Shown: positions 1,147-58,276 of the stretch, piece after piece
Layout of the letters: every line of letters begins with the position of its first letter
Position numbering within the stretch: the first letter of the stretch is position 1
Assembly (NCBI RefSeq): GCF_037975245.1
Contig: NC_092569.1
Location: 29,596,168 to 29,660,167, forward strand
Source: Apostichopus japonicus
Lineage: Eukaryota > Echinodermata > Holothuroidea > Aspidochirotida > Stichopodidae
Length of the DNA stretch: 64,000 nt
Reading direction: 5' to 3'
Notes under the pieces: model-generated
Database searches by the model: none
Seen by the model: the letters and a program-made list of their open reading frames with translations, nothing else
Told to the model about the DNA's origin: nothing
Program-made: the position numbers and the translations under genes

Positions 1147-1454
1147 TAATGCAAGATTAAGCATTTTAACTAAGTGCAGGTACTCAAACTCGTATTTATA
1201 TCATGTTGTAATTGCTACTATATATTGTAGCGCCGTTGTCTCGCTGGTATACTTTATGTATTCTCGTTGTATATGTAATGTACCAGTTTTTTTAAACTAA
1301 GAAAACATACTTGACATACTTTAGTTACAAAAGATCCATTCGTTCTCAGAATAAACCTTCCAGTTTAAACATGTTTACATTTTAAATTTAATAAACGATT
1401 ACGATATTTTTAAATTTTGGCTTTATAATTATTAAGAATGTAAAAGACACTTAC

Positions 1455-1719
1455 CATCTGATTTTACGAATGTACCTAAACTAGAGATATAATATTTCCC
1501 CCATTCATCTGAGATTCGAAACTTGTCGTATGTAACATAGTAAGTATCTCCAGCAACGTTCTCAAAGTCCATTCGCAGTTGGTACCGCTTTTGATTTGTT
1601 AAGAAGGCAATTTTCTCATTTCCGATCCAAAACTCACTTCCAAGAAAGCCAAAGCCATTTCTGAAGTCTTTCCAATTTCTATTAAAATTTACAGAATCCG
1701 ATCTTCGTCGCTGTAATAC
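1455..1719 (-). CDS. Gene A exon 4: FReD1b (central fibrinogen subdomain)
   Basis: 265 nt, phase 0 to 1, acceptor TTGTAG, donor GTAAGT. Encodes VLQRRRSDSVNFNRNW, FGFLGSEFWIGNEKIAFLTN and YYVTYDKFRISDEWGKYY, ending SDG. Classic central FReD block. The next in-frame exon (TIL by analogy) is off the window. Confidence 0.9.
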
Positions 1720-4700
1720 CTACAACGAATATCAAAGAAGTAAGCTTTGACTAGGACGTTATTAAATATTTATTATTCTTTCCTTCATGCAATGCGATTA
1801 GTTGCTAACAGTTAAAACAGAGAAAAAAGAACTTATAATTCCTAATTTTACTTCGTAGTGTGGGCTAGAGGTTTACAGTTTTCTTAGAAGATGAACCACA
1901 CTGTACTTAATTTCAAAATATATAAAATAATTGATTCAAATTTTGTTTCGATAAAAATATCAAAATTATGAAATAACGATTTTGTATTAAATCGCTATAT
2001 ATTCGTCTATGCAAAATTGAATACATTTGTACAAAACTAGTGAAAGTTGAAAAGGAGATATCAAGTAAACACCCATACCGTCCATCCACCACTATCAAGA
2101 TCATTTTTACAGTAAGCCTCAAATGGTTCCGGATAGCCATCTGGTTTAATAAGGTACACTCCAGATGTATTGTGGGTAGAGGAACAGGTATTCGATACTT
2201 CTTTACAATCCCTCGGATACGCTGGTTGTTGAAAAACAAAGTATGATATACCTTTATGAAAAGGAAAACAAAGTAAATATATTATTGCAATTGAAAAATC
2301 AGTTCAATTAATGGAAATATCGCATTTGATTATACGTCAATTGTTATAGAAATGGATTAGTTACTATGAGAGTAAGATACTAGGTCAGTCTTTATACCAA
2401 TTATTATTCAACTACCATATAGAGGAAGATATAGCGACTAAATTAAATACAGTAATCGTCATTTAATTCATATATGTAACTGCTTTGAAGCATTGGTTCT
2501 CAGTCTGCAATGTAAATTTAGAGACCATGTTAATTGAATTTATATTTCATCAAGTTTTCGTAGTTGTCGATCATATCCAAGTTTGATCAAAAGATTTATG
2601 AAAAAAAAGTCAAATTCGATTTAACTTACCTGAACAAAAATAGATGTAGAACGTAGGACTTGATCAAAATATACGACTCAGAGGAAATCAATGTTATAAT
2701 ATATGTAAGGAAATTGTGGCACGATTGAAAAACAAAAAGTCTAGAGCGACCACTAAATAACATTGAACATTCACAGCCTTTCAATTTGTCCAACTGATGT
2801 GTTAACGTTTATAATACATAGGTGATATAACTTACAGAGGTTGCTTCTTATTATAACGTAAATCATATTACATTGCAATTACACCTACCTGAAGATCTTC
2901 CCTCGGCACTGACGATTACCTGTGTAATAATAAACATTTTCTGAATACATTACAAGACATACAGAGTATTGCAGTCAACACTAAGCAGGATCAGATTAAA
3001 TCTAATGTTAATGTATAATGAACCAGTTCGAGGGAAAGGAGGAGCATTTCGAGAACTGGTCCCAAAAAATGTTACATTTAAACAAGTGAAGTCGATTTAA
3101 ACTTTGGTAAATTCTCCTGATCACCACTTTATATGATTTGTTTGTTTTTTCTATATTCCATATCTGATTTACAGGTCAATGATCACTTACAGAGTACAAC
3201 TTTCTTCCAGAAAGCATTAGATTGGCATTTTCCGCTTTTTACAGCCACTCTCGTACATGATATGCAAGCTAAGGCGAGAGAACAAAGGCAATAGCCGGCT
3301 GCTTGAATAAACTGCTGTGTTGCTTAATGTAGACAGATGTTCTTTGTTCATAATATATTTTGACATAAGAACATTTCAGACATGAGTTGTAACGCATTTG
3401 TGTTTGACAGTCCATCGTAACGGGTATGGATCATCAGCTAGCTATTCTTTGTGGAATACAATTACTGTTTCTTGATACTTACCGTGCACGTGAAACACTG
3501 AGATTTAAAAGGTGTCATTTCACTTGTAAGGTAAGTGCATAGACATATACTAATATATCGTACTAAATAAACAAGTGAAGCAGCGCTGTAGAAGCTCAGC
3601 TAAGATTCTATTTGATAAGCTTCTTTCTAGTGTTGTGCAGATATCCTGAATATCGGTTTTGGCCGATATCCGATATTACAATCCCAATATCGGCCCATAT
3701 ACCGATATTTTAAACAGCAATAATGATGGTCAAACTACAAGTTAAGTCTTGCTTTAATACATACAGTATCATAATTATAATCGTCAGTCCTAAGTTATTG
3801 TCGTTTTCACATCACAAACGCAGTAACAGCTAGTTTAACTCTCATTTGCAGAAAAAAGGGCATATTCTATAACCTGTTTCCTATCCTTAATAAACGATTA
3901 TATTTCCCACCAATTAGTTGATATGTATGAAATTGTGTGCTTTCATTTTTGTGTGTAAAACACAAGCCTATCCTTCCTGTTTCTTCTGATGCACTATTCG
4001 TTACTCTGTTTGACCAACTATGTTCAACACTTAGGCTGCAAGTCTTATACAAACTGCCTTCAAATGCAGCCACGAATTTCTTAGCAAAAGTGACATCGTG
4101 TGAAGAATAAGCTCATTTAATGTAGAAAAGAGATGAGCATATCCCGGCTTAGAACTTTAACTACTCCTTGTGTTTAACAGAACGAAAACGAAAACTTGTT
4201 CTTCGATTTTCTAATTTCCGTACACAATTATGTCCTTCCATTAGCCGGCTATACTAACAACTAAGCCTAGCAAAACTTAGCAGGTGCTTCGTGTTTGAAA
4301 TATTTCGTAAACCAGTCGGCAACAAATTGTGATAAGCAAACTTGATTCTCAAAATACAATCTTTTCATTAGCCATTGCTGTTTGACAAAATGCATACATG
4401 GTACTCTTTGCAGCTTTTAAAAGGTACATAATGATTTAGTAGGGGGTTTCCACGTGATATAACTTTTATTCTCAGCTGATTGCTCAGAAGCACTGTGCAA
4501 GTTAGGGTGATAGGCTACTACAAGTCATATACATATAGTCCGATAAGTTACTTCTTACATTGTGTTTTACCCCGGTGCATTTTTCGTAGGTCTGAATATG
4601 CCATATTTACAACTTTGCTTGTGCAAAATGTTTCTTGGACTCTTGCCAAGAATATTTGCAAGGGCAAAACAGGGAAGTTAATTTTTAAGCGCGACAAAGA

Positions 4701-12188: not shown

Positions 12189-12267
<79 letters not shown>
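12189..12267. repeat. (AT)n microsatellite, 79 bp
   Basis: Uninterrupted AT dinucleotides. The duplicated site near 54347-54358 has only about six AT units, so the array expanded in this copy or contracted in the other. Confidence 0.95.
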
Positions 12268-15829: not shown

Positions 15830-16158
15830 CTACACCGGCCGTATTTTCATATCTGTGTATTGTAGGCCGCAGTCATATCCACTAAGATCAGTCCAGAATA
15901 TGTTCGTTCCTCGAGTGGAGCCGTCGTAGTCTCCGTTGAGGTGAGAATGCGCACAATAGGCACAGTAATTACTTCCGACAGGGAAATAATCGCAATAATA
16001 TTCATGAGTACGGCAATAGTAATAATAATAATAATAATGACTGCCGAACCACCAAGCTCCTTGATGCTTCTCGGCGCAGTCATAGGAACTCGACTCATCA
16101 TTATCCCGGTCACGTGTGCTGAATGGTTTGTTGTTGCTACGCGACATAGCATCAAAAC
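15830..16158 (-). CDS. Gene B exon 8: FReD2c, terminal exon with poly-Tyr insertion
   Basis: 329 nt including stop TAG. FDAMSRSNNKPFSTRDRDND carries the Ca-site motif; DCAEKHQGAWWFG and CAHSHLNGDYDGS are the canonical binding-region blocks; ends MKIRPV. Between WWFG and CAHSHLNG sits an insertion of about 25 residues, SHYYYYYYYCRTHEYYC and onward. It has seven consecutive Tyr and three extra Cys, with a fourth extra Cys at GYDCGLQ. Confidence 0.92.
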
Positions 16159-19100
16159 CTACGGATTCGAGAAAGAAAACAAACTTCAACTGTTACGTGC
16201 ATGTTTCTTACCGTAATTTACTAATGGTTAATATGATTGTTTTTCTATTGAACTGTTATTTCTTAAAGCTATAAAAAAATTGTTATTTCAGATGTATTAA
16301 CTGAAGGGCTATATTACATCAGTTTATTATATACGATTTCACAGAGAAAAAATCACCATAAAATTGCGTTGCCAAAGTCTCCGTAAGCCTTTCAGTTATA
16401 GGTTTGCCTACGTGTATTTATATAGTAAATTCCTCAATTTTGTCCCCTGCAAACTTTTATTTATTACGAATATTACCGATAACTAGCAGTAAGGTGTAAA
16501 TAATATTATTGTATTTGGCACTCATTAGCAATCATATTGTTCTAAATTTCCAAAACTTTATTCAAATTGGAAACGGCATATTGGGAATGTGTCTGTTTTG
16601 CTTGTTAATTTTCATCTGCTCATTAATAGTTATTTCATCATTCTGCGTTTAGTGCCCGATGTAGTAAACATTTCTTACAGTATTATTTTCCCAAATTCTT
16701 AAAAGTTAAATATTTGTCCTTTACTAAACAACGGAAAAATGAAAAATGCTGCATTCTGGGTCTATAGTTAAAACAGTTCATTCATACAAAATCGATGAAT
16801 CTACGTAGACTATTTCAAAGCTACATTCCATCAATATTTGTGCAAGCTATGAAACTTCTTCCTGTCTAAGTAGCTGTTTTCATACTGATCACGTGGCTAT
16901 CACACAGTAGGCTAACTTGTGGTTTATAACCTTCTTGTTACGCTATTGGCTATTTATGTTCATTTTGTTTTGTTTATATTATGCTTACTTATGTGTGTAA
17001 AAATAACATACTTGTATCATGTGTATTTGACAATGGTGTCCTCAGTACATCACCAAATTGTATCTTTGTCCACACAAATCATGAAGTTCAAATTTTAGAG
17101 ATACAATGACCTTCTTTTGTTAGCACTGTCAGTCAGACTGATTACAAATGACTGAATAAAGATATAAATATGTCACTGCGTGGCTACATTAAGGTACTTT
17201 CTCAATTAATTTAAACATAAAAAGTTGATAAGTTGAAATGTTTATACAATATGTATATGTATGTATATTTCATATGTTTCTTATTTTATTATTTTTTATA
17301 TGATTGATTTTCAATGTAAAAAAGTTAAGAAATAAATGCCCAGTATAGCGTATTTACTTGTCTTTCATGATTTGTAGGTATCGCAACTATATAAAATACG
17401 TTACGAGGGAAACGGAAATTAGATAGGAAGTGTAAATATGAATATAGGGATATTAAATATATTTCAGGTTCAATATGAAGCTCCATGGAAAAGTGACTAG
17501 ATGCTAAGGAGACGAATGAGTTTCACACTTGGGTGTTTGTAGTTGCCTACCTATTACTTCTAATTACCATATTTAGTGAAATATTTGCATTAGTCTTTTA
17601 AGAACTACTAACTATTAACGTGAATATTCCTTGCAATATGTTAATCAATCGTGTGTCATTAGACATATGTAAGATCATATTTAAAAACAGGCAGATACGC
17701 ATTCATTGTAAAACAATGATGAACGTAGAAAACGATATTGTTTTTTTAGGATGTATGTAACTAGAAATTTGCAAATAATAATACTAAAAATTTACAGAAA
17801 TGCTAACCTGAATTTCCATTATATGATCCAATTGATAGTCGATATTTGTCCGCATCATCACTTATACTGAAGGAGGAATAGAGGGCGTAATACGATGAAC
17901 TGCTTGAATCTGTGAGGTCTATCCGGAGACTGTATTCTTTTTGATTGGTAATTGCGTGTATGTAATCATTACCAAGCCAGTGATCACCTATAGGATGTTC
18001 AAATCCGGTCTTGTATTCAGCCCAGGTACGATAGAAATCAACAGCGGCGCTAGATCGTCGCTGAATTACCTATGAATATTAAGAGAAATATACATGTAAC
18101 AGGAGTATGTGAGAAATATGTAATGTGTCTTCCACACTTTTGCAGAACAAATGAATTCAGATACATGACACTGAACTGTATCAAATGTTCTTGCATAACT
18201 CACCGTCCATCCTCCTCCGTTACTTTCCATCTCACAGTAAACCTGAATGCCGCTTGGCCAACCATCGGGGTAAATGGTGTAAACTCCATCACTAGAACCA
18301 TCAACGTAAAGCTCTTGGCAATCCTTTGGGACTGCCTTGCGGGTACACGTAACACCGTCTCCTTCGTAGCCATCTATACAGTAACATCTACGAACGCCTT
18401 CTCTGACATCACAAGTCGCGTCATCACTACAGCGGTAACTATCTTCTACCATGAGTTGGTTATTGCTACAATTAGATCTTCTTGTACATCCTGAATTGAC
18501 GTAAGACTCGCCGTTCTAAATTTAATGGGAAATATTTAAAAAAGAATGTTATGACAAATTAAAACAGTTATTCTGAATTCACCATTGTGACTCACCAGAC
18601 TACCGGACAAATTCACCAGGAATTTTAATTCTGTTTCCGGCAAAAGAAATTGTTTGAAGAAAAATTAAACCACAAGTAAATTGGTTATCGTAAATTATTT
18701 GAAAATATAGAAACTTGCAATGAAATTAAGTATTACCAAACATTTCTTTCTTTTTTGAAATTGTCAATCAAACAAACATTGGGCAGCTGTATCTTCTGCT
18801 TTTAATTATGAAATTGGTTATCATTTCTGTATTTTCGAAAATTATTCACAAAACTTCATTTGTTTCCATCCTCAATGTAAAGAATGAAAGGGAAAGGAAC
18901 TAGTGTCAATACTGACCATTAATACAGTCCCCTTGTCAGCGGCGAAACAGCTGCATTGGTTCTGAGGAATGCAATGCTCATCCTGAATCATGTAATCACC
19001 AACACAAACACATTTCTCTAGTTCTGTACGAGAGGTTGAAGAGATGCATGTGTCAGGGTCATCGCACGTCCTCTCACATGTCTCATTGGAAAATATCTTA

Positions 19101-22100
19101 TTCGTTGGACACCATTCCAAATGAGATTCTAGGAAGGAAGATTGTAAATCATGCAGTAGAGGATCCACTAGGGAAGTGATGCATTGTACTAAACTAATGT
19201 GTTAAATTAAAGTTCTTGAAGCTACTGCCCTTTACCCGACACTACAGAGAGGACATTACAAAGAATTTAAACAACAGTGATTTGTAATGTTCTGGGATGA
19301 CTTGGTAGACCATGCAATTCAGTATTTAACAATATGGATGCCATAGAGTAGACATGTAGTTTGGGATCATTTTCACAACAAAATGTGAAGGAGAAAGTCT
19401 TGGTGGATAGCGTTTGTATCACAAAGCCGATTTCTGATGTCGTCAAGCATTATGACTCCCGAACACAAAGCATAAGTCAGCACTCCCACCTTACTAACAT
19501 TTTATTATAGGGAGTTATATTTGCATATTTGTTAGTTGATTGTTATTATTTATATAACTGAGTCACACCATGGCTAATTTTTAAAATTGACTCACCTGCT
19601 GTTCCTCCGTAAGTTCCTACGCTTGAGAGTTGATATTGCCCCAATTCATCTGAGATACGAAATTGGTCATATGTTACGTAGTAAGAATGTCCTGCAGCAT
19701 TCTCAAAATCCAATCTCAGTTGGTATATTTTTTGGTTCGTTAGAAAAGCTAATTTCTCATTTCCAATCCAAAATTCACTGCCAAGAAAACCAAAGCCGTT
19801 TTTGAAGTCTTGCCAATTCCTATTAAAATTAACAGAATCCAGTCGTCGCCGCTGTAACACCTGCAGTAGATGTCGTACCGGAGTAGAAAGTTACTATCTC
19901 GAATTTGTATCGGTATAATCAACAGCAAAAATGTTTTTATGAATATGATCGCTTATTAAAACAAGTGTTATGTATAAAGTTATAGCTTTATTTTATTTTG
20001 TGACAACTTTCATTGTACCATTTGCATCTATTTAAATTAACTGTAACGTCATACCCCTTAGTTATGTAACCTAAGAGTCCAACAAAAGTGCACGCGTAAG
20101 TTTCTGATCGGTGTATTATATGAATGTAGGCTATTGAAAATGCCAAATCAACTATTGCTGTTCCATAAATTTTTCTGTTACGCTTACTTGAAGTCAACAT
20201 TATTTAACGTGTTTAGAACAATAATATGATTGATAATAAACTACAAAACAGATGATGCGATAACATTCCATGTAATGTGAAATGAAACACAGTAAGGCTT
20301 ACCGTCCATCCACCGTTATTGAATTCATTATCACAGTAAGCTTCAAACGGTTCTGGGTATCCATCTGGTTTGATGAGGTACACGCCAGATGTATTTTGGG
20401 TAGAGGAGCAGGTATTCAATACTTCCTTGCAATCTCTTGGGTATTCAGGTTGTTGAAAAACAAAGTATGAGGAACCTGTGTGAAGAACGAAGATCATTTG
20501 ATATCATGAAATTACCCAAAAAATTAATAAATCCCGTTCCACGTTATTCGTAGAGTGTGAATATTTCAGTATAAGCGTATAACCTGTTTATTCGGCTGTT
20601 TTGTTAAAAAAAAAGTCTCATTTATGATGATAACAAAGTTGAAAAACAAAATATACTAAGGCAATCATGAGTGATATGAAAACTTAAAAAGAAGAAAGTT
20701 TAAAGAATAGCAAACATGAAGAACAGAGTTAAATTCCAAGCGATGACAATGGACATTGGGACATAAAAAAGAGTGAGTTGAATAAAGTAACCAACACAAA
20801 TGTGACCGTCAGCCATTTGTCAGTACTAATAGTAAAGGGTAACCGATTTTCAAAATAAGACTTTCATTAATTTGACCTACCTGATGATTGCTTCCCGACG
20901 CTGGCGACGACCTGTATTTTAAATAAAATAAATGTTACTCCAATTAAAATGACAATTATCTACCTGTATCTATTGACAGTAGTGAAATTGGATTTATAAA
21001 CTATATCAAATGAGTTACAGAATGTCGCAAACTTGGTCTGCTTGGGCAATATTCTTCCGCTCGACTCTTTTGTTCATATTAGAACTTCAATTCAAGCTTA
21101 CTTCCATAAGTCACGGAATAGGTATAATCTCATGGACTTAAGCTTTACTGCAGTTCAGCCCTTCATTTTCTCTTCCTTGCATTTTAATAGATAAAACATG
21201 AGTGACTTTCAAGCAGCTAAAGTTAAGAAACAAACTTTGACCTGCAAACCTTTACAAGAAGACTGAATCACTTTGATGCATTATTGGCAACTAACTACCA
21301 GAACAAAGACAGACAAAACATAAACAACTTTCTTTTCTTTGTTCGTGTCATACGTGTTTGACATATACCTCCTCGCAGTAAAGGATGTATTATGTTACGT
21401 TTGTTATGAAGATGTTCGAAGTATTACAGGTGACAGTATGCAACTATAATTGATTTTTCTTTGGATTTATTCTGATTGCGTGAGAGTATTCAAAGAACAT
21501 GAACGGAAATGATCAGCTGTTGCCATTTTAAACATAAGGTAAGATATTACAAACATTTAGAGTGTTTAAAACTTTAAGAAAGATCAGTGTCATACAGCGC
21601 TCTGATGTCTAGTTTTTTTTCAATCAGAAATTGATTACCTTATATATACTTTTATAATCCAGCAACAAATCAAATATTAAATACAATGTGAGTATCGTAC
21701 GTGGGCTCAGCTATTAAGTAGCTATGGTCTGCTATAGAAATGAAAATGATGGTGAATTGACATTTATGCGTCAATTTCTGTTTCTTTTAATGAATATTAA
21801 TGTAGGGTGGATTTCAAAGAACATTAAAACAAAGATGAAACTTTCTTTAAAGTAAAAATTCGGCAAATGGAAATGAATTTTGTACTCGGTTTTGTGATTT
21901 CAGTTAAACGGATTGTTTATAAAGCTATAATCAGTAAAGTTGCTTGGTAATTATTTACTGACAATTGAGTACATTGCTTGACGCTAAAGAAGTCAATTGA
22001 AAAATAAAATGATCTTTCCCAAAACTAATTTACGAAGACAATAATGAATAATGTTACCATCAAGGCACAGAGTTATTTAATTGAGCTTTTATTGAGCTGA

Positions 22101-33973: not shown

Positions 33974-34156
33974 CTACACTGGCCGTATTTTCATATCTGT
34001 GTATTGAAGGCCGCAGTCGTATCCACTAAGATTAGTCCAGAAAATGTTCGTTCCTCGAGTTGAGCCATCGTAGTCTCCGTTGAGGTGAGAATGCGCACAA
34101 TAGAAACAAGTACTTCCGACAGGGAAATTATCACAATAATATTCATGAGTACGGCA

Positions 34157-34194
<38 letters not shown>

Positions 34195-34308
34195 CGAACC
34201 ACCAAGCTCCTTGATGCTTCTCGGCGCAGTTATAGGAACTCGACTCATCATAATCCCGGTCACGTGTGCTGAATTGTTTGTTGTTGCTACGCGACATAGC
34301 ATCATAAC
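33974..34308 (-). CDS. Gene C FReD2c, terminal exon with longest poly-Tyr run
   Basis: 335 nt including stop. DRDYDESSSYNCAEKHQGAW replaces the DRDND form of B and D, so one Ca-site position is Tyr. WWFG is followed directly by twelve Tyr, then CRTHEYYCDNFPVGSTCFYC and AHSHLNGDYDGS; ends MKIRPV. Confidence 0.92.
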
Positions 34309-37300
34309 CTACGGATTCGAGAAAGAAAACAAATTTCAAATGTTAAGTACACTCCACCGTACCGTTATTTATATTACTAATTGTTAGTATTAGTGCTTAT
34401 CTAGTAATCTTTTATTTCTTAAAGCAATACAAAATGCTGTCATTTCAGATGTATTAACTGAAAGGTGATACCACATCAGTTTATTATATACGATTTCACA
34501 GAGAAAAAAATCACCGTAAAATTGCGTTGCCAAAGTCTCCGTAAGCCTTTCAGTAATAGGTTTGCCTACGTGTATTTATAAAGTAAATTATTCCTCAATT
34601 TTGTCCCCTGCAAACTTTTATTTATTACGAATATTACCGATAACTAGCAGTAAGGTGTAACTAATATTATTGTATTTGGCACTCATTAGCAATCATATTG
34701 TTCTAAATTTCCAAAACTTTATTCAAATTGAAAATGGCATATTGGGAATGTGTCTGTTTTGCTTGTTAATTTTCATCTGCTCCTTAATTCAATAGTAATT
34801 TCATCATTCTGCGTTTAGTGCCCGATGTAGTAACATTTCTTACAGTATTATTTTCCGAAATTCTTAAAAGTTAAATATTTGTCCTTTACTAAACAACGGA
34901 AAAATGAAATGTGCTGCATTCTGGGTCTATAGTTAAAACAATTCATTCATACAAAATCGATGAATCTACGTAGAATGTTTCAAAGCTACATTCCATCAAT
35001 ATTTATGCAAGCTATGAAACTTCTTTCTGTCTACGTAGCTGTTTTCATACTGATCACGTGGCTATCACACAGTAGGCTAAGTTGTGGTTGATAACCTTCT
35101 TGTTACGCTATTGGCTATTTATGTTCATTTTATTTTGTTTATATTATGCTTACTTATGTGTGTAAAAATAACATACTTGTATCATGTGTATTTGATAATT
35201 GTGTCCTCAGTACATCCACCATATTGTGTCTATGTCCACACAAATCATGTAGTTCAAATTTTAGAGATACAATGACCTTCTTTTGTTAGCACTGTCAGTC
35301 AGACTGATTACAAATGACAGTTTAGAGATATAAATATGTCAATGCGTGGCTACATAAAGGCAACTTCTCACTTACTTTTTCAAAAATTTACACATAAAAA
35401 GTCAATCGAAATTTTAAACAATATTTATATGTATATATATTTAATATGTTTCTTATTTTAATATTTTTTATATGATTGATGTTCAATGTGAAAAACTTTA
35501 GAAATAAAATGCCCAGTATAGCGTTTTTACTAGTTTGTCATGATTAGTAGGTAACGCAGCTAGACATAAGTTACGAGAGAAATGGTTATTGGATAGGATG
35601 TGTAAATATGTAGATTAGGATATAAAGTATATTTCAGGTTCAATATGAAGTTTCATGGTTTAGTGACCAGATGCTAAGGGCACAACTGTAATGCTTTTAC
35701 ATTCATGGATGTACTAAGCTACCTGCCTTTTACTTTTACTTACCATGTTTCGTGAGTTATTTGCATTAATCATTTAATTTACTACTAAATATTTACGAGG
35801 AAATTCCTTCCACTATTTGAAACAATCGTGTGTCAACAAACATCTGTTAGATCTGGAGTTAAAAACATGCAGATATGCTTAATGTAAAACAATGATGAAC
35901 GTTGAGAACGCATTGTTATTTTTTAGAATGCATTTAACTAGTAAATCCCAAATAATGATACTAAAAAAGTACAGAGATTCTAACCTGCATTTCCACTATA
36001 TGATCCAATTGATAGTCGGTATTTGTCCGCATCGTCACTGATGCTAAAGGAGGAATAGAGGGCGTAATACGACGACCTTCTTGAATCGGTGAGGTCTATC
36101 CGGAGACTGTATGTTTTTTGATTGGTAATTGCGTGTATATAATCATTACCGAGCCAATGATCTCGACTAGGATGTTCAAATCCGGCCTTGTATTCAGCCC
36201 AGGTACGAAAGAAATCAACAGAGGCGATTGATCGTCGCTGAATGACCTATGAATATAAATGGAAATTTACATGTAACAGGAGTAAGTGAGAAATGTAATG
36301 TGTCTTCCACACTCTCGCAGAACAAATGAATTCAGAAACAAGACACTTAACTGGTTGAAATATTCGTGCACAACTCACCGTCCATCCTCCTCCGTTACTT
36401 TCCATCTCACAGTAAACCTGAATGCCGCTTGGCGAACCATCAGGGTAAATGGTGTAAACTCCATCACTGAGTGTACCGGAACCATGAAGCTCGTAGCAAT
36501 CTTTTGCAATCACGCGGGTACACGTCACTCCTTCTCCTCCGTAGCCATCATTACAGTAACATTTACGGACACCGTTCCTCGTATCACAGGTTGCGTGAGC
36601 ACTACACCGGTAACTCTCATCTATAAGCCGGTTGTTCCTACAGGTTGATTTTCGTGTACATCTTGAATTTGCGTAAAACTGGCCCTCCTAATTTAAGATA
36701 TTCAGTGGGGGAAAAAAATGAATTATGAATGTGTTGTTGTCACAATGAAATGTACAGGATTTAAACGTTGGTGACCAACGCAAACTTCCCCTTGGCTGAT
36801 TATGGTAAAGGTATGAACCTTGATGAAAGTTTTACTAGGTCTTGATACCAAATCCAAGGAAGGGGGTCTACAGGGACTCGCCATGAATGAAAATAGCTGT
36901 TAAATGTTGCATTCAACAACTTATTTCGATATTTTCGATACATTAGGCCTGCAATTGGTTCTAAATGCAAGACCGTGGTAAGAAGTACGAATTAATGTTT
37001 GTGAAGGTTTATAAAGTGGTTGCACACCCGTATAGGAGTGGTCTTATGCTTCCCGGCTAAATTTAATACATCCCGCGACTGACAGTGTTGTCTGGACTGG
37101 CGTCGGAAGTAAGTTCCCAGACCCCTGCATGCCTAACCAATGCAAGCGCTATACGTTTATCTCTGAATGTAATGCGATAACCAACAAGTTTAAGTGGTAA
37201 AAGGTTTTCTTCGCATTATATGGACCATGAAATATGAAAATAAGTATTAAAAATGCCATAATAGAACCATACTGACCCTTAATACACTTCCTTTGTCAGC

Positions 37301-40300
37301 AACGAAGCAGTTGTGGGTGCACGTCACTCCGTCCCCTTGGTAGTTTGGATTGCAGTAACATTTACGGACATCGTTCCTCGTATCACAGGTTGCGTGACTA
37401 CTACACTGGTAACTCTCATCTACAAGCTGGTTGTTCCTACAGGTTGATTTTCGTGTACATCTTGAATTAGCGTAAAACTGGCCCTCCTAATGTAAGATAT
37501 TCAGTGAAAAACAAAAATGAACTATGAATGTGCTGTTGTCACAATGAAATGTACAGGATTTCAACGTTGGGTGACCAAAGCAAAATTCCCCTTGACTGCT
37601 ATATGTAATGGTATGAACCTGGATGAAAGTTTTATGAGGTCTTGATACCAACTCATTAGTGGGGTGGTGGGGGTGGGATTCGCCTTAAAATAGGTAGCTG
37701 CAAAATGCTACATTCAAAGGTTTATTGAGACTATCCATGAGTAGGATAATTATTTCTTACTGCAAGACTGTGGTAAGAAGTATCCATGAATGTTTGTGAA
37801 AGGTTTATAAAGGGGTTTCACACCCGTATACGAGTGGTCTTATGATTCCCGACTAAATGTAGTTTATTCCTCGACTGACAGTTTTGTCTGGACTGGCGTC
37901 GGAAGTGAGGTCCCAGACCCCTGCCCAACCGCGATGCAAGCGCTATTCATTTACATATAAATGTAATGCGATAACCAACAAGTTTAAGTAGTAAAAGGTA
38001 TCCATCCAATAATATGGGCAATAAAGTATGAGAAAAGTATTTAAAATGCCATAACAGAACCGTACTGACCCTTATTACACTTCCTTTGTCAGCAACGAAG
38101 CAGTTGTGGGTGCACGTCAATCCGTCTCCTTGGTAGTTTTGATCGCAGTAACATTTACGGACACCGTTCCTTGTATCACAGGTTGCGTGACTACTGCACT
38201 GGTAACTCTCATCTATAAGCCGGTTGTTCCTACAAGTTGATTTTCGTGTACATCTTGAATTAGCGTAAAACTGGCCCTCCTAATTTAAGATTTTCAGAGA
38301 AAAATGTGAATTATGAATTTGCTGTCGTCACAATAAAATGTAGAGGATTTCAACTTAAGATGACCAATGCAAAATTCCCCTTGACTGATGTAGGTAAGGT
38401 ATGAACCTTGATGAAAGTTTGATGAGGTATTGATACCAACTCCAAAGTAGGGGGCATAGGGATTCCCCATTAATAAAATAGCAATCAAATGTTGCATTCA
38501 ACAACATATTTCGATATTTTCGATACATTAGACCTGCAATTAGTTCTAACTACAGACTGTGGTAAAAAGTATGAACACATTTGTTGTGAAAGGTTTATAA
38601 AGTGGTTGCACACCCGTATAGGAGTGGTCTTATGCTTCCCGGCTAAATTTAATACATCCCTCGACTGACAGTTTTGTCTGGACTGGCGTCGGAAGTGAGG
38701 TCCCAGACCCCTGCCCAACCGCGATGCAAGCGCTATACATTTATCTCTAAATGTAATGCGATAACCAACAAGTTTAAGTAGTAAAAGGTTTCCTTCGCAT
38801 TATATGGACCATGAAATATGAAAATAAGTATTCAAAATGCCATAACAGAACCGTACTGACCCTTAATACACTTCCTTTGTCAGCAACGAAGCAGTTGTGG
38901 GTGCACGTCACTCCGTCCCCTTGGTAGTTTGGATTGCAGTAGCATTTACGGACACCGTTCCTCGTATCGCAGGTTGCGTGACTACTACACTGGTAACTCT
39001 CATCTATAAGACGGTTGTTTCTACAAGTTGATTTTCGTGTACATCTTGAATTAGCGTAAAACTGGCCCTCCTAATGTAAGATAATCATTGAAAAACAAAA
39101 ATGAATTATGAATGTGCTGTTGTCACAATGAAATGTACAAGATTTCAACGTTGGGTGACCAAGCAAAATTCCCCTTAACTGATATATGTAAAGGTATGAA
39201 CCTGGATGAAAGTTTTATGAGGTCTTGAAACCAACTTTGAATTAGTGGGGTGGTGGGGGGGGGGGATAGGGATTCGCCTTAAAATAGGGAGCTGCCAAAT
39301 GTTGCATTCAAGGGTTTATTGAGACTGAGCAGGATAATTATTTCTTACTGCAAGACATTGGTAAGAAGTATCCATGAATGTTTGTGAAAGGTTTATAAAG
39401 GGGTTTCACACCCGTATACGAGTGGTCTTATGATTCCCGACTAAATGTAGTTTATTCCTCGACTGACAGTTTTGTCTGGACTGGCGTCGGAAGTGAGGTC
39501 CCAGACCCCTGGCCAACCGCGATGCAAGCGCTATTCATTTACATATAAATGTAATGCGATAACCAACAAGTTTAAGTAGTAAAAGGTATCCATCCAATAA
39601 TATGGGCAATAAAGTATGAGAAAAGTATTTAAAATGCCATAACAGAACCGTACTGACCCTTATTACACTTCCTTTGTCAGCAACGAAGCAGTTGTGGGTG
39701 CACGTCAATCCGTCTCCTTGGTAGTTTTGATCGCAGTAACATTTACGGACACCGTTCCTTGTATCACAGGTTGCGTGACTACTGCACTGGTAACTCTCAT
39801 CTATAAGCCGGTTGTTCCTACAAGTTGATTTTCGTGTACATCTTGAATTAGCGTAAAACTGGCCCTCCTAATTTAAGATTTTCAGAGAAAAATGTGAATT
39901 ATGAATTTGCTGTCGTCACAATAAAATGTAGAGGATTTCAACTTAAGATGACCAATGCAAAATTCCCCTTGACTGATGTAGGTAAGGTATGAACCTTGAT
40001 GAAAGTTTGATGAGGTATTGATACCAACTCCAAAGTAGGGGGCATAGGGATTCCCCATTAATAAAATAGCAATCAAATGTTGCATTCAACAACATATTTC
40101 GATATTTTCGATACATTAGACCTGCAATTAGTTCTAACTACAGACTGTGGTAAAAAGTATGAACACATTTGTTGTGAAAGGTTTATAAAGTGGTTGCACA
40201 CCCGTATAGGAGTGGTCTTATGCTTCCCGGCTAAATTTAATACATCCCTCGACTGACAGTTTTGTCTGGACTGGCGTCGGAAGTGAGGTCCCAGACCCCT

Positions 40301-43300
40301 GCCCAACCGCGATGCAAGCGCTATACATTTATCTCTAAATGTAATGCGATAACCAACAAGTTTACGTAGTAAAAGGTTTCCTTCGCATTATATGGACCAT
40401 GAAATATGAAAATAAGTATTCAAAATGCCATAACAGAACCGTACTGACCCTTAATACACTTCCTTTGTCAGCAACGAAGCAGTTGTGGGTGCACGTCACT
40501 CCGTCCCCTTGGTAGTTTGGATTGCAGTAGCATTTACGGACACCGTTCCTCGTATCGCAGGTTGCGTGACTACTACACTGGTAACTCTCATCTATAAGAC
40601 GGTTGTTTCTACAAGTTGATTTTCGTGTACATCTTGAATTAGCGTAAAACTGGCCCTCCTAATGTAAGATAATCATTGAAAAACAAAAATGAATTATGAA
40701 TGTGCTGTTGTCACAATGAAATGTACAAGATTTCAACGTTGGGTGACCAAGCAAAATTCCCCTTAACTGATATATGTAAAGGTATGAACCTGGATGAAAG
40801 TTTTATGAGGTCTTGAAACCAACTTTGAATTAGTGGGGTGGTGGGGGGGGGGGGATAGGGATTCGCCTTAAAATAGGGAGCTGCCAAATGTTGCATTCAA
40901 GGGTTTATTGAGACTGAGCAGGATAATTATTTCTTACTGCAAGACATTGGTAAGAAGTATCCATGAATGTTTGTGAAAGGTTTATAAAGTGGTTGCACAC
41001 CCGTATAGGAGTGGTCTTATACTTCCCGACTAAATGTAGTTTATTCCTCGACTGACAGTTTTGTCTGGACTGGCGTCAGAATTGAGGTCCCGGACCCCGC
41101 CCAACCGCGATGCAAGCGCTATTCATTTACACATAAATGTAATGCGATAACCAACAAGTTTAAGTAGTAAAAGGTATCCATCCAATAATATGGGCAATAA
41201 AGTATGAGAAAAGTATTTAAAATGCCATAACAGAACCGTACTGACCCTTATGACACTTCCTTTGTCAGCAACGAAGCAGTTGTGGGTGCACGTCAATCCG
41301 TCCCCTTGGTAGTTTTGATCGCAGTAACATTTACGGACACCGTTCCTCGTATCACAGGTTGCGTGTTCACTACACTGGTAACTCTCATCTATAAGCCGGT
41401 TGTTCCTACAAGTTGATTTTCGTGTACATCTTGAATTAGCGTAAAACTGGCCCTCCTAATTTAAGATTTTCAGTGAAAAAAATGAATTATGAATTTGCTG
41501 TCGTCACAATAAAATGTACAAGATTTCAACGAAAGGTGACCAATGCAAAATTCCCCTTGACTGATGTAGGTAAAGGTATGAACCTTGATGAGGTCTTGAT
41601 ACCAACTCCAAAGTAGGGGGCATATGGATTCCCATTAATAAAATAGCAGTAAATGTTGAATTCAACAACATATTTCGATATTTTCGAAACGTAAGACCTG
41701 CAATTGGTTCTAACTGCAGACTGTGGTAGAAAGGATGAACACATTTGTTGTGAAAGGTTTAAAGGGGTTGCACACCCGTATAGGAGTGGTCATATGCTTC
41801 CCGACTAAATGTAATACATCCATAGACTAACAGTTTTGTCTAAGACTGGCGACCGAAGTGAGGTCCATGGCACCTGGCCAACTGCGATACAAGCGCTATA
41901 TCCATTCATCTCTAAATGTATGCGATAATCGATATGTTTAAATATGAACAGGTTTCCTTCTAAGTGTATGGACAATGAAGTATTAGAAAAGTATTTAAAA
42001 TACCAAAACAGAACCGTACTGACCCTTAATACACTTCCTTTGTCAGCAACGAAGCAGTTGTGGGTGCACGTCGTTCCGTCCCCATTGTAGTTTTGATCGC
42101 AGTAACATTTACGGACACCGGTCCTCGTATCACAGGTTGCTTGTTCACTACACTGGTAACTCTCATCTATAAGACGGTTGTTCCTACAAGTTGATTTTCG
42201 TGTACATCCTGAATTAGCGTGAAACTGGCCCTCCTAAGTTAGATATTCGGTAAAAAAGGTGAATATACGCATTTGCAGTTGTCAAAATGAAATGTACAGT
42301 ATTTTAACGTTGTATGATTAATGCAAAATGACTGATATAGGTATGGGTATGATCCTTCAAGAAAGTTTCATGAGGTCTTGATACCAAATCTAAAGTAGGG
42401 AGGGGGGGGGGTGTAGGAATTCGTTATTAACAAAAAATAGCCGTCAAATGATGCATACAACAACTTATTTCGATATTTTCGATACATTAGGCCTGCAATT
42501 AGTTCACACTGCAAGACTGTGGTAAGGTGTATCTATAAATTTTTGTGTAAGGTTTATGAAGGGGTTGCACACCCGTAAAGGAGAAGTGTTATGCTTCCCG
42601 ACTAAATGTAGTACATCCCTCGACTGACAGTTTTGTCTGGACTGGCGTCGGGAGTGGGTGCATAATCTAGGTTAATCGCGATGCGAACGCTACTTGGTTA
42701 TTTGTTAATGTATTGCGATACTCAACAAGTTTAAATAGTAAAAGGATTCTTTCTAATTATATGGAAAATTAATTAAAAGCAAATCTTATAAAATTTCATA
42801 ACAGGTTTTACTGACCCTTAATACACTTCCTTTGTCAGCAACGAAGCAGTTGTGGGTACACGTCACTCCGTCCCCATGGTAATTTTGATTGCAGTAACAT
42901 TTACGGACACCGGTCCTCGTATCGCAGGTTGCGTGTTCACTACACTGGTAACTCTCTTCTATAAGACGGTTGTTTCTACAAGTTGATTTTCGTGTACATC
43001 CTGAATTAGCGTGAAACTGGTCCTCCTAAGTTAAATATTTAGTGAAAATACCAATAAATGAATTATGAATTGCAGGTGTTAGAGTGCAATGTACCGCATG
43101 ACAGATGCAAAATTACCCTCGATGGATTTAGGTAAAGGTATGAAACTTTAAGAAATTTTTATAAGGTCTTGATACCGTCTCCAAAGAAGGTGGCCTAGGG
43201 ATTCGCATTGAAAACAAATAGCCGTTAAATGTTACATTCAACAACTTATTCGATATTTTCGATACATTAGGCCTGCAATTGGTTCTAACTTGAATACTGT

Positions 43301-46300
43301 GGTAGGAAGTATGTATACTTTTTTTTGAAATGTTTATAAAGGGGTTGCACACCCGTATAGGAGTGGTCTTATGCTTCCCGCTTAAGTTAAATACATCCCT
43401 CGACACATCTTGTATTGATGTAAAAATTGCCCTCCTAATTTAAGATATTCAGCAAAACAAAACTAATAAATAAATCATGAATTTGCGGTTTTAACAGAAA
43501 TTCAGAACGGAATTTCAACGGTGGGTGGCCAATCCTATCAACCGCGTTTCGTATACTTCTCGGTTATATGTTAATGTAATGCAATGATCAACAAGTTAAA
43601 GTAGTAAATGGTTTCCTTTTACTTATATTGAACATTAATTAAAAGTAAATCATTTAAATTGAAATAACCGTACTGACCGTTAATACACTTCCTTTGTCAG
43701 CAACGAAGCAGTTACATTGGTTCAGAGGGATGCATTGTTCTTCCTGTCTCAGATAATCACCGACACAAACACATTGCTCTGTTTCTCTGCGAGACGTAGC
43801 CGAGATGCAAGTGTCAGGGTCATCACAAGTCCTCTCACATATCTCATTGCTAAATATCTCATTAGCCGGACACCGTTCAGGGATTATTCCTAGAGAACAG
43901 GACAGAATAAAATGTAAATAATAGTAACCAGTATCAGACACGAAGTATAAGACACGTGGCAAAGAATAATTTTTGTCATTCCTTCAATACTATCAATACT
44001 GTACAATGGCTATCAGAACGTTACTGAAAAGAAACACACCTTCAGAAGCATTTCGAATTAATCTAGAATATTTTAAATCATCTAGTGGTCGTTCCGTAGT
44101 CACATTAATGTTAATATAAATTCAGCATTACGAGATAACAACCGAATAATCCTTTATTGAACAACTGGTTTGAAACCAAATAGTCATATCCTATTTCTGT
44201 TCACAGTTTCTCTCGGTGTTAGTAAACTGCTTTCTGAAAACAATGATAATTAATAACAACATCGAATTATTTGCGTTGGTTGTTCTGATCAAACTGGGAG
44301 ACGAAACTGTTTTAAGTGTAAACGTTCTGTTGTCCAAACGTTAGATACTGTTTCTTGTTCAGAGCCAAGATAAGAGTTAAGTACGAAGCAGTCTTACAGT
44401 AAGTGTGTAATTACACTTTGGCCAGAATAAACAATTAAGTTTAAACACGTTCACATTTGACATTTAATAAACGATCACAATTATTTTTAAGTTTTGGCTT
44501 TCAATTTAATAAGAATGTAAAAGACACTTACCATCTGATTTTACGAATGTACCTAAACTAGAGATATAATATTTCCCCCATTCATCTGAGATTCGAAACT
44601 TGTCGTATGTAACATAGTAAGTATCTCCAGCAACGTTCTCAAAGTCCATTCGCAGTTGGTACCGCTTTTGATTTGTTAAGACGGCAATTTTCTCATTTCC
44701 GATCCAAAACTCACTTCCTAGAAAGCCAAAGCCATTTCTGAATTCTTTCCAATTTCTATTAAAATTTACAGAATCCGATCTTCGTCGCTGTAATACCTAC
44801 AACGAATATCAAAGAAGTCAAGCTTTGACTAGGACGTTATTAAAAATTTATTATTCTTTCCTTCCTGCAATGCGATTAGTTGCTGACAGTTACAACAGAG
44901 AAAAAGAACTTATAATTTCTAATTTTACTTCGTAGTGTGGACTAGAGGTTTACAGTTTTCTTAGAAGATGAACCACAGTGTACTTAATTTCAAAATAAAT
45001 AAAATAATTGATTCAAATTTCGTTTCGAAAAAAAATATCAAAAATATGAAATAACGATTTTGTATGAAATCGGTATATATTCGTCTATGCAAAATTGAAT
45101 ACATTTGTACAAAACTAGTTAAAGTTGAAAAGGAGAAATCAAGTAAACACCCATACCGTCCATCCACCACTATCAAGATCATTATCACAGTAAGCCTCAA
45201 ACGGTTCCGGATAGCCATCTGGTTTAATAAGGAACACTCCAGATGTATTGTGGGTAGAGGAACAGGTATTCGATACTTCTTTGCAATCCCTTGGATACGC
45301 TGGTTGTTGAAAAACAAAGTATGATATACCTTTATGGAAAGGAAAACAAAGTAAAACTGTTATTGCAATTGAAAAATCAGTTCAATTAATGAATATATCG
45401 CCTTTGATTATACGTCAATTGTTATAGAAATGGATTAGTTACTATGAGAGTAAGATAATAGGTCAGTCTTTATACCAATTATTACTCAACTACCATATAG
45501 AGGAAGATATAGCGACTAAATAGAAATACAGTAATCGTCATTTAATTCATATATGTTTTGAAGCATTGGTTCTCAGTCTGCAATGGAAATTGAATTTATT
45601 TTGCATCAAGTTCCCGTAGTTATCAATCATATCCAAGTTTCATCAAAAGGCTCATGAAAAAAAGTCAAATTCCGTTTAACTTACCTGGAAAAAATAGATG
45701 TAGCACGTAGAACATGACATGATCAAAATATACGGCTCAGAGGAAATCAATGTTATAATATATGTTAGGAAATGGTGGCACGATTGAAAAACAAAACGTC
45801 TAGAGCGACCATTACATAACCTTGAACATTCCAAGACTTTCAATTTGTCCAATTGATGTGTTAACGTTTATAATACATAGGTGATATAACTTACAGAGGT
45901 TGCTTCTTATTATAACGTAAATCATATAACATTACCATTACACCTACCTGAAGATCTTCCCTCGGCACTGACGATTACCTGTGTAATAATAGACATTTTC
46001 TGAATACATTACAAGACATACAGAGTATTGCAATCAACACTAAGCAGGATCAGATTAAATCTAATGTTAATGTATAATGAACCAGTTCGAGGGAAAGGAA
46101 GAGCATTTCGAGAACTTGTCCCAAAAAATGTTATATTAAAACAAGTAAAGTCGATTTGAACTATGGTAAATTCTCCTGATCACCACTTTATATGATTTGT
46201 TTGTTTTTTTCTATATTCCATATCTGATTTACAGGTCAATGATCACTTACAGAGTGCAACTTTCTTCCAGGAAGCATTAGATTGGCATTTTCCACTCTCG

Positions 46301-49300
46301 TACATGATATGCAAGCTAACGCGAGAGAACAAAGGCAATAGCCGGCTGCTTGAATAAACTTCTTTGTTGCTTAATGCAGACAGATGTTCTTTGTTCATGT
46401 TATATTTTGACATAAGAACATTTCAGACATGAGTTGTAACGCATTTGTGTTTGACAGTCCATCATAACGGGTATGGATCATAAGCTACTCTTTCTGGAAT
46501 ACAATTACTGTTTTTTGATACTTACCGTGCACATGAAACACTGAGATTTAAAGGTGCCATGTACTTGTAAGGTAAGTGCATAGACATATTCCATTATACC
46601 TTACTAAATAAACAAGTGAAGCAGCGCTGTAGAAGCTCAGCTAAGCTTCTATTTGATAAGTTTGTTTCAAGTGTTGTGCAGATATCCTGAATATTGGTTT
46701 TAGCCGATATCCGATATTACAATCCCAATATCGGCCCATATTCCGATATTTTAAACAGCAATAATGATGGTCAAACTACACGTTAAGTCTTGCTTTAATA
46801 CATACAGTATCATAATTATAATCGACTGTCTTAAGTTATTGTCGTTTTTCACAACTCAAACGCAGTAACAGCTTATTTAACTATCATTTGCAGAAAAAAA
46901 GGGCATAATCTATAACATGTTTCCTATCCTAAATAAACGATTACATTTCCCACCAAGTTGATATGCATGAAATTGTGTGCTATCATTTTTTTTTGTGTAA
47001 AAACACAAGCCTAGACTTCCTGTTTCTTCTGTTGCACTATTCGTTACTCTGTTTGACCAACTATGTTCAACACTTAGGCTGCAAGTCTTATTCAAACTGC
47101 CTTCAAATGGAGCCACGAATTTCTTAGCAAAAGTGACATCGTGTCATGAATAAGCTCATTTAATGTAGAAAAAACATGAGCATATCCCGGCTAAGAACTT
47201 TAACTACTCCTTGTGTTTAACAGAACGAAAACGAAAACTTGTTCTACGATTTTCTAATTACCGTAGACAATTATGTCTTTCCATTAGCCGGCTACACTAA
47301 CAACTAAGCCTAGCCAAAATGAGCAAGTGCTTCGTGTTTGAAATATTTCGTAAACCAGTCGGCAACAAATTGTGATAAGCAAACTTGATTCTCAAAATGC
47401 AATCTTTTCATTAGCCATTGCTGTTTGACAAAATGCATACATGATACTCTTTGCAGCTTTTGAAAGGTACATAATGATTTAGTAGGGGGTTTCCACGTGA
47501 TATAACTTTTATTCTCAGCTGAGGGCTCAGACGCACTGTGCAAGTTAATGTGATAGGCTACTACAAGTCATATACATATAGATCCATAAGTTACTTCTTA
47601 CATTGTGTTTTACCCCGGTGCATTTTTCGTAGGTCTGAATATGCCATATTTACAACTTTGCTTGTGCAAAATGTTTCTTGGACTCTTGCCAAGAATATTT
47701 GCAAGGGCAAAACAGTGAAATTTATTTTAAAGCGCGACAAAGAATGCTTTGTAGGCTATACGTAGCGTTTAGAGGCCTGACTGGTCCGTTTGTATCAGTA
47801 AATATTAATCAGAACTTGCGCCATGCTTGTTTGACAAGCTGATCGGCATATTGGCCGCTGAATATGAATCGAAATCGAGACTGAGGCTAAAATTGTTGAG
47901 AACAAATTAATAAAACATTGCAATAAACAAGAAGTGGCTTTGTTATGGAAAAAGAAGTTCAATATCGGTTTGCCGTTATCGGCATTGGGCCTTAATTTTA
48001 CCGATGTCAATCCCTTATGCCTTATGCTCCTTCTTAGCAGACATAGGCCTAGTTTGTTACAATGTTAGAAATTTTTAATTCTTCAAATGGTAACACTTTC
48101 ACAAACTAACTAGAAATGTAAGACAACAATATTAAAAGCTAACTCAACAAATCCACTTGGTATAGAAAGAAGAATAAAGATTTAACATTAAATTTGTATC
48201 TTCTATAACATGATGATAACATTACATAGTGTGACAGTAGAGACGGGTCGGAAGCAGCTTAAAAAAATACATTTTTCTTGTTTGCTAATTCCGAATAATA
48301 CCAATATAGACAGGTTAGAACAGCCTAGCCTATTACGATTCAAATTTTATGAAATGACGATGTTATATGTCAATACAAAAACATAATGTATAGCTTTTCC
48401 AGTACCTGAAGTGAATTTAGACAATTCTCTGAATAACCAGAAAAAACAAGCTGTAAATCATTCCTGAAAGTTTAACAGTTTTCTGATGTTTTCTTCTCCA
48501 TCAAATTTGTGAAAATTCTTAAAGACAATGTTTTCTCATGGGTCATCTTCTCAATAGTTTTAACACGTCGAACAGGTGAAGGGTTACTTTTTGGCACAAT
48601 TTAGAATCCTTCTACAAGAGTTTGGCCCTTAGATACAAGACTATGGTATCATATTTACCTAAAGTTATAAATTATCAAATCTACAAAATCGAAATCATTA
48701 CGTGGATTGATTTGAGCTATTTAGTAGTACATTTTATACTTTGCTGTTGCCAAAAGAGTAAAGTACACAATATAATACAATCTCTAGAAAGAGATTGAAG
48801 CGTAAAGGGGAGGGGGTGGGGCAGGGGAGATATATTTTTATCGTCGAATATGTTATTCAGGAAGCAACGACTTACACTGTTTGAGACGTTACTGCTGTAT
48901 CTGTACACAACATTGTATTTATAATCACAGAATGCTAAATATCACATGCCGTATTTTCCCTTTATAAAATGCACGTGCGAACTATTGCTAGAACATATCA
49001 TTTGGAGGGATTAATTTTGAAATCTTTCAACTTATTACCATACATGGAGTAGTTATAGGTGTTACGACAATACTTTCCAGTTTTTGCAACATGTTAGAAA
49101 AGAGACATTTAAATACAGTGTGATATATTTGATGTTTAATTTTTACAAGTCTATCATCAATATCTATTTTAAGTATTGGGAGAGTTCACTTTTGTATACT
49201 GAACTACATTACAACTTACATGTTACTGTTAAACGACAAACGAAAAATTAAGTTCTTTACTACACCGACCAGCCACATGGTATAATAAAGGGAAGGTGTG

Positions 49301-53302: not shown

Positions 53303-53566
53303 TATTTCGGGTTTGTATAAATGTTACGCGAAAAGATATTCGGTGAAGTGCAAGATGACAAATGGCACAGAGTCTCTCTCTAGGGGTGTGCAACTCTCTA
53401 TGGAAATGGCCGCAGTAGTATGGATGTCTATTAATGCCATCATTTTATTTGAAATATAATTTGGTGAGCAGCTTATACAAATGTACTGCACATCTGTAGT
53501 ATCCGTAGGCTTGTATGTAAACGTGGCTATTCGACATGCGCAATCCAACTTAATAGTATTCAGAGC

Positions 53567-53574
53567 TATTTATA
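53567..53574 (-). promoter_or_regulatory. Candidate TATA box of gene C
   Basis: TATAAATA 265 bp upstream of the ATG, the same spacing as in gene A. Confidence 0.35.
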
Positions 53575-57953: not shown

Positions 57954-58276
57954 CTACACCGGCCGTATTTTCATATTTGTGTATTGTAGGCCGCAGTCAT
58001 ATCCACTAAGATCAGTCCAGAATATGTTCGTTCCTCGAGTGGAGCCGTCGTAGTCTCCGTTGAGGTGAGAATGCGCACAATAGGCACAGTAATTACTTTC
58101 GACATGGAAATAATCGCAATAATATTCATGAGTACGGCAATAGTAATAATAATAATGACTGCCGAACCACCAAGCTCCTTGATGCTTCTCGGCGCAGTCA
58201 TAGGGACGCGACTCATCATTATCCCGGTCACGTGTGCTGAATGGTTTGTTGTTGCTACGCGACATAGCATCAAAAC
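57954..58276 (-). CDS. Gene D FReD2c, terminal exon with shortest poly-Tyr run
   Basis: 323 nt including stop. FSTRDRDNDESRPYDCAEKH, WWFGSHYYYYYCRTHEYYC, FHVESNYCAYC, HSHLNGDY, MKIRPV. FHVES replaces the FPVGS of gene B. Confidence 0.92.

Follow-up and report, generated by a model that had tools for sequence, protein, structure and literature searches.

Poly-tyrosine tracts of Apostichopus japonicus FReD genes as segments of a putative hypervariable, cysteine-framed loop at the ligand face

As judged from sequence, the poly-Tyr tract in the terminal FReD exon of Apostichopus japonicus genes is a segment of a hypervariable, Cys-framed and often Tyr-rich loop in a greatly expanded FReD family, and the poly-Tyr microsatellite is one raw material of this loop family at the FReD ligand face. 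The most likely function, in which we place moderate confidence, is that the variable loops would constitute a germline repertoire of recognition specificities. A more specific picture is offered tentatively: more than 100 FReD receptors, encoded mostly on one chromosome, may carry a CDR3-like, often Tyr-rich, disulfide-pinned loop that is kept diverse by slippage, conversion and selection. The window, which is the whole stretch of 64,000 nucleotides analyzed here, corresponds to C9:29596168-29660167 of a 671.6-Mb, 35-sequence genome and has a G+C content of 34.2%. It contains three genes of interest (B, C and D), whose tracts and inserted loops are as follows:

16016..16036, minus strand: poly-Tyr tract of gene B, (TAT)5 TAC TAT, 7 Tyr
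34157..34192, minus strand: poly-Tyr tract of gene C, (TAT)10 TAC TAT, 12 Tyr
58140..58154, minus strand: poly-Tyr tract of gene D, (TAT)3 TAC TAT, 5 Tyr
15956..16045, minus strand: whole inserted loop of gene B, 30 residues, GSHYYYYYYYCRTHEYYCDYFPVGSNYCAY, between WWF and CAHSHLNG
34100..34195, minus strand: whole inserted loop of gene C, 32 residues
58080..58163, minus strand: whole inserted loop of gene D, 28 residues

Read on the minus strand, the coordinates and the counts of 7 (B), 12 (C) and 5 (D) Tyr given in a preliminary description of this DNA proved exact, and each tract lies in frame between WWFG and C-A-H-S-H-L-N-G, within an open terminal exon and in the FReD frame. TAC TAT ends all three tracts, leaving 5 (B), 10 (C) and 3 (D) uninterrupted TAT units. 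TRF at its lowest threshold listed the B and C tracts and not that of D, which with three uninterrupted units is hardly a microsatellite. The surroundings had been described as otherwise nearly constant. The three exons are indeed closely similar, but in C the Ser-His that precedes the tract is missing, as is a codon that follows it. D and B are separated in this exon by 5 replacement changes, two Tyr codons of tract length and no silent change, too few differences to decide on selection; every coding indel in a comparison of the three genes spans whole codons. The description of the tract as a lone repeat in a constant setting had to be given up, the tract being instead one form of a hypervariable insertion common to all 110 related exons read.

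The genes are built from three FReD exons preceded by EGF-like and TIL-like cysteine-rich exons. The features resolved in the window are:

15830..16158, minus strand: gene B terminal FReD exon (exon 3), with phase-1 acceptor GTAG/GT and stop TAG; Pfam Fibrinogen_C, 9.4e-11
17808..18069, minus strand: gene B FReD exon 2; Pfam, 2.8e-27
18204..18515, minus strand: gene B EGF-like part and FReD exon 1; EGF_3 over the cut-off, TILa below it
18872..19201, minus strand: open frame of the B unit with a TIL-like cysteine-rich exon; Pfam TIL below the cut-off
19546..20503, minus strand: second, partial FReD upstream in the B unit, exons 1 and 2 only (frames 20213-20503 and 19546-19890)
33974..34308, minus strand: gene C terminal FReD exon; Pfam Fibrinogen_C over the cut-off
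35985-36246, minus strand: gene C FReD exon 2
36379-36687, minus strand: gene C FReD exon 1 and EGF-like part
37247..43025, minus strand: gene C tandem series of eight more TILa/EGF-like exons, of which one was covered by the Pfam scan
57954..58276, minus strand: gene D terminal FReD exon; Pfam Fibrinogen_C over the cut-off
59933-60194, minus strand: gene D FReD exon 2
60329-60640, minus strand: gene D FReD exon 1 and EGF-like part

When exons 1, 2 and 3 were joined, B, C and D showed no internal stops and compatible splice phases. The terminal exons scored 42.4, 39.2 and 41.6 bits against Pfam PF00147, for which the curated cut-off is 22, and the exon 1 and exon 2 stretches that were scanned were likewise over it. 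In the ten Pfam-scanned stretches, EGF-like and weak TIL/TILa matches appeared in place of the collagen-like stalk of ficolins, and there was no match to an IgSF domain; the upstream exons covered are a part of the full set, and the 5′ ends of the genes lie outside the resolved models. All three units carry a partial two-exon FReD and a TIL-like exon upstream. Partial FReDs limited to exons 1 and 2, each set having good phase-1 donor sites, lie at window positions 1432-2303, 19546-20503, 44506-45381 and 61503-62449. In the one at 19546..20503, exon 2 ends in phase 1, as would be needed to join either exon 3 or a TIL exon with an acceptor like those examined in the C and D units. Going by phase, the partial FReDs may splice to a TIL exon or, alternatively, to a shared terminal exon, which would make alternative splicing possible. 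Tandem TILa/EGF-like exons occupy window positions 36247-43025 and recur in the left flank on C9 (in window coordinates, -765 to -5692, -66567 to -70832, and about -89734 to -99763); their number differs among neighboring genes from one to at least a dozen.

The position of the insertion emerges from comparison with lectins of known structure. The best PDB matches of these domains are acetyl-binding FReD lectins, namely ficolins, FIBCD1 and tachylectin 5A, with which they share Fibrinogen_C, a D-x-D calcium motif and the ligand-site disulfide pair (C270 and C283 in M-ficolin). A phmmer alignment of gene B with M-ficolin runs to GAWWF-G, breaks off, and resumes 28 residues on at C-A-H-S-H-L-N-G; in the best alignment, residues 168-195 of the B domain have no match, after which C-x-x-S-x-L-N-G follows. 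The two motifs adjoin each other in M-ficolin (WWYADC-HASNLNG). Thus, where the known lectins have two residues between W-W-[FY] and the second, ligand-site Cys, the exons studied here have a loop of 21-43 residues, or 82 in one case, and they further differ from these lectins in the changed equivalents of F274, D282 and H284. The M-ficolin alignment bears out the assignment of the tract to the disulfide loop, just N-terminal of the ligand-site Cys. This Cys forms a disulfide and contacts the ligand in FIBCD1 and M-ficolin (PMC3908420, PMC3088710); in FIBCD1 the cis-peptide bond at this residue orients the backbone NH groups to which the acetyl group is bound (PMC3908420), and in M-ficolin the same bond is described as the pH switch (PMC3088710). 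Because the insertion adjoins the Cys of this disulfide and cis-peptide bond, it stands directly at the ligand site.

The further proposal that the tract belongs to a ficolin-like binding pocket holds for the site and not for most of the pocket residues, since the equivalents of F274, D282 and H284 are changed in nearly all 110 exons. The F274 equivalent is His in 107 exons, that of D282 is Asp in only one, and that of H284 is Ala, Thr, Gly, Ser or Asn in all 110 and never His. In the alignment of gene B, the Y300 and A301 equivalents are Arg and Gly, and that of Y312 stays Tyr. The residue set of the acetyl-binding S1 pocket (M-ficolin F274, D282, H284, Y300, A301 and Y312) was thus not found in these exons; in simulations of M-ficolin, GlcNAc is lost from the H284A variant (PMC3088710). 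The putative D-x-D calcium motif before the first Cys was recognized by pattern in 110 of 110 exons, and B, C and D contain D-x-D-x-D before C as well as both ligand-site Cys. It is very improbable that the tract is a solitary coding microsatellite and that its length polymorphism serves to tune a ficolin-like acetyl pocket that is constant in other respects: the 3 (D), 5 (B) and 10 (C) uninterrupted TAT units within closely similar exons would suit such tuning, but the canonical pocket is mostly lost and the surrounding loop is itself hypervariable.

The standard signature PROSITE PS00514, quoted as W-W-[LIVMFYW]-x(2)-C-x(2)-[GSA]-x(2)-N-G in PMC7588048, matches none of the 110 loop exons, in which 21-82 residues replace the x(2) spacing, and hence misses these loop-bearing domains. 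Three other FReDs fetched from the same genome are all short-spaced by eye; two match PS00514, and the third has one extra residue further on that causes a mismatch despite its short spacing. The loop-bearing exons accordingly read as a variant of the FReD domain and not as a textbook member. An unspliced intron was ruled out as the source of the loop: the frame carries through from one anchor to the other in all 110 exons read, no stop interrupts it in 108, and the loop has conserved Cys; this in-frame count comes from a protein search, in which frameshifted copies are under-represented, and one split copy was seen. Because the AlphaFold prediction for the terminal exon alone was unusable (pLDDT 37.6), we only infer that the loop projects from the domain.

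A genome search with the B exon scored at least 150 matches among 892 candidates, 145 of them on C9, and a Fibrinogen_C search yielded at least 169 matches from the 150 that were scored among its 2,729 first-look candidates. Among the 150 matches listed in the former search, 138 lack an internal stop and 12 contain one, so that most listed copies are intact in exon 3; on this ground pseudogenes were rejected as an explanation. The 110 exons read comprise 109 of the 150 listed (100 fetched and 9 from the window and its 100-kb flanks) and one more in the flanks. Among the 41 unread matches are 10 of the 12 stop-containing ones, together with fragments, low-ranked matches and some whose score equals that of a fetched match. 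Entropy, pN and pair analyses used 107 of the 110, two exons with stops and the one with the 82-residue loop being dropped, and one stretch (p77073) ends before the end of its exon, which possibly affects its Cys count. The exon with the 82-residue loop (L152, C9:29746639-29747109) has nine Cys in the loop, which approaches the size of a small disulfide-rich domain. Three distant members (L113, L114 and L116, at 4.2 and 24.2 Mb of C9) have a shorter loop with a single Cys; they also bear TAT-coded Tyr runs, so that Tyr-rich loops recur across the family. Searches of GTDB genomes and IMG/VR confirmed no relatives, as expected for an animal gene.

The loops differ far more than their surroundings. 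Of 110 loops, 101 are distinct, and entropy per alignment column averages 1.95 bits across the loop versus 0.99 and 1.06 bits across the two flanks (107 exons). In each of six divergence bins, the ratio of loop pN to flank pN lies within 2.1-3.7 (107 exons). Composition differs as well: Tyr makes up 24% of loop residues and 7.5% of flank residues, and Cys 12.4% and 4.0%, respectively (110 exons). The Tyr enrichment is uneven and not general to all loops, amounting to 43.4% in the 24 loops whose longest Tyr run is at least 5, 26.3% in the 26 with a run of 3-4, and 16.3% in the 60 with a run of 2 or less.

These data bear on the main rival to a recognition role, namely that constraint on the loop is relaxed and the insertion simply tolerated, with the TAT repeat and its neighbors drifting on an idle surface while only the Cys and the core are selected. 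We regard this as rather unlikely. In its favor, the 26 of 110 loops without adjacent Tyr have only 9.2% Tyr, near the flank level, which ties much of the enrichment to repeat runs; against it, Tyr still accounts for 17.6% over the whole set minus runs of 3 or more. The Cys framework also speaks against drift, as Cys positions largely persist across loops and 97 of the 110 loops have an odd number of Cys. Counted over the whole exon, the Cys number is even in 92 of 110, a parity that is suggestive of pairing between loop Cys and an extra downstream Cys, although it does not go beyond shuffling (89 of 106 distinct proteins versus a shuffle mean of 83.9 and maximum of 93). Retention of the insertion in 110 of 110 copies likewise argues against relaxed constraint, with the caution that the exons were found with a query itself bearing the insertion.

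Pairwise comparisons place the rate of loop change near neutrality. In 15 disjoint ungapped closest pairs, omega was 1.23 (0.84-1.95) in the loop versus 0.59 in the flank, a ratio of 2.09 (1.12-4.40); the corresponding values were 0.87 versus 0.49 in 24 pairs and 0.87 versus 0.39 in 32 pairs. Without Cys codons, loop omega was 1.53 (0.88-2.86) in 15 pairs and 1.01 (0.76-1.56) in 24 pairs. Loop omega was not significantly above 1 in the 15-, 24- or 32-pair sets, and a value near 1 is what relaxed constraint would give. The ratio of silent change in loop and flank was 2.04 (0.96-3.68), 1.76 (1.14-2.41) and 1.30 (0.93-1.70) in 15, 24 and 32 pairs, respectively; raised silent change in the loop, if true, would point to faster turnover, to conversion homogenizing the flanks, or to alignment error.

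As a neutral standard, 700 bp of intron beside exon 3 was compared in 9 disjoint pairs, across which intron divergence ranges from 1.7% to 20.8%. Relative to the intron rate, replacement divergence in these 9 chosen pairs was 0.82 (0.38-1.69) in the loop and 0.15 (0.08-0.30) in the flank. Of 11 pairs compared, the 9 pooled (the two others share L072) are 9 of the 15 closest pairs; among the 6 closest pairs left out, the loops are identical in four and show 3 differences in a fifth and 17 in the sixth, so that the figure of 0.82 is perhaps biased somewhat upward. The loop is free to change at about the neutral rate, whereas the scaffold is strongly held. Strong positive selection was not established by the omega and intron tests, and because loop replacement runs near the intron rate, as relaxed constraint would also predict, diversifying selection and relaxed constraint are so far indistinguishable.

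Repeat slippage contributes to the variation. Tyr runs of at least 5 occur in 24 of 110 loops and are nearly all coded by TAT. An in-frame uninterrupted (TAT)5 is present in 20 of the 110, which are related loops and not 20 independent events. With 25,237 forward and 25,735 reverse positions of (TAT)5 in the 671.6-Mb genome, about 0.13 in-frame positions would be expected by chance across the 3,557 loop codons read. TAT outnumbers TAC by 676 to 176 in the loops versus 277 to 367 in the flanks, that is, TAT supplies 676 of 852 loop Tyr codons and 277 of 644 flank Tyr codons. Whole Tyr codons separate close paralogs (B and D, B and L029, L077 and L080), frequently alongside other changes, and L085 has a six-Tyr run that is absent from L079 and L072. 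Both the TAT bias and these whole-codon differences uphold the earlier suggestion that frame-preserving triplet slippage is a source of length change, and it is well supported, from comparison of paralogs within one assembled genome, that slippage would explain part of the change in loop length between recent duplicates. Tract lengths would also be predicted to vary among individuals of a population. A survey of proteomes reported that single-amino-acid repeats of Tyr are rare in every one of them (PMC5125637).

The tract was not established as an unusual mutational hotspot. In the aligned block shared by B and D, all 19 listed simple repeats differ in length between the copies; they represent about 17 loci, because a 215-bp tandem repeat makes two of the entries duplicates of others, and all were chosen as long in one copy, one of them being the poly-Tyr tract itself. 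The B-D tract difference of 6 bases lies within the range of the other simple repeats in this duplicated block. Length change alone is thus ordinary, a point on the side of relaxed constraint. The largest listed change is at (AT)39 in window 12189-12267, which has five to six units in the D-block copy near 54346.

Returning to the recognition repertoire, we propose a plausible mechanism by which it could operate. The FReD core would act as a scaffold, on whose ligand face the loop would form a projecting, disulfide-pinned surface; loops would be renewed by tandem duplication and TAT slippage, together with point changes and a measure of gene conversion. The loop of each copy may bind its own varied ligands, such as microbial or endogenous glycans or proteins, with the length of the Tyr run tuning the reach and stickiness of the loop and not the acetyl pocket itself.

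Stretches rich in Tyr and Cys are suited to adhesion or oxidation, and the family could have expanded for structural or regenerative use, with its products serving as extracellular-matrix or coelomic-fluid adhesives whose Tyr-rich loops cross-link or self-adhere; we consider this improbable. It would fit the expansion, tandem arrangement and up-regulation in visceral regeneration described for A. japonicus FREPs (PMC5638244), but common cross-linking needs no diversity of sequence or length between neighboring copies. In that report, FREPs are the most expanded A. japonicus family, with a tandem cluster of 21, and group mainly on one linkage group (PMC5638244); expansion, tandem clusters and concentration on mainly one linkage group are shared with the family described here. 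The words "TIL", "insertion" and "EGF" are absent from the main text of PMC5638244, where no description of the loop, its variability or Tyr tracts was found. A search of the PMC full-text literature, a scope outside which most subscription journals fall, found no description of the inserted loop.

The recognition repertoire has partial counterparts in other animals. Sea urchin 185/333 (SpTransformer) is, to our knowledge, an unrelated protein without a FReD. Its genes too form clusters of immune genes in an echinoderm, in which short tandem repeats occur along with segmental duplications (PMC5103432). The FREPs and FReMs of Biomphalaria are also diversified invertebrate FBG families, and EGF-like plus FBG is the FReM layout (PMC7588048); mollusc FREPs carry one or two IgSF domains N-terminal to FBG, whereas none was detected here in the ten scanned stretches and the diversity lies inside FBG. 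The bovine ultralong CDR-H3 offers an analogy of working and not of descent, being a long variable insertion in a binding loop with variable disulfides (PMC6440498), but it belongs to an unrelated fold and is diversified somatically, whereas the variation seen here is that of germline copies in one assembled genome. If the loop is a recognition surface, an antibody-less animal would possess CDR3-like diversity in a lectin domain shared with human ficolins, with the rest of the domain left far more constant. Specificity in echinoderm immunity would then have a concrete basis open to testing, a known scaffold would offer a set of natural disulfide-framed binding loops, and a further independent route to a highly diverse recognition surface would have come to light.

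Window positions 1-22024 and 44032-63970 form a large duplication, about 88-93% identical by parts, with the C gene between the copies; one copy contains B and the other D, each with two partial FReDs upstream. B and D differ by only 1.8% in intron 2 and might conceivably be two alleles falsely assembled in tandem; the A. japonicus assembly is described as HiFi (PMC10344927). Between B and another copy, m25677, the intron is 3.6% apart and flank pS is 17%. Intron 2 of B and C (window 16368-17103) has a central stretch that is 2-5% divergent, with 11-24% upstream and about 14% beside exon 3. This mosaic divergence, seen in B and m25677, in the patchy B/C intron and in the intron range of 1.7% to 20.8%, suggests gene conversion. 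Elsewhere on C9, three exon-3 pairs, two of them with identical scores, lie 677.6-677.8 kb apart (34.65-34.81 and 35.33-35.42 Mb), and a fourth pair with identical scores lies 610 kb apart; such spacing may reflect either a large segmental duplication of recent date or a duplicate created in assembly.
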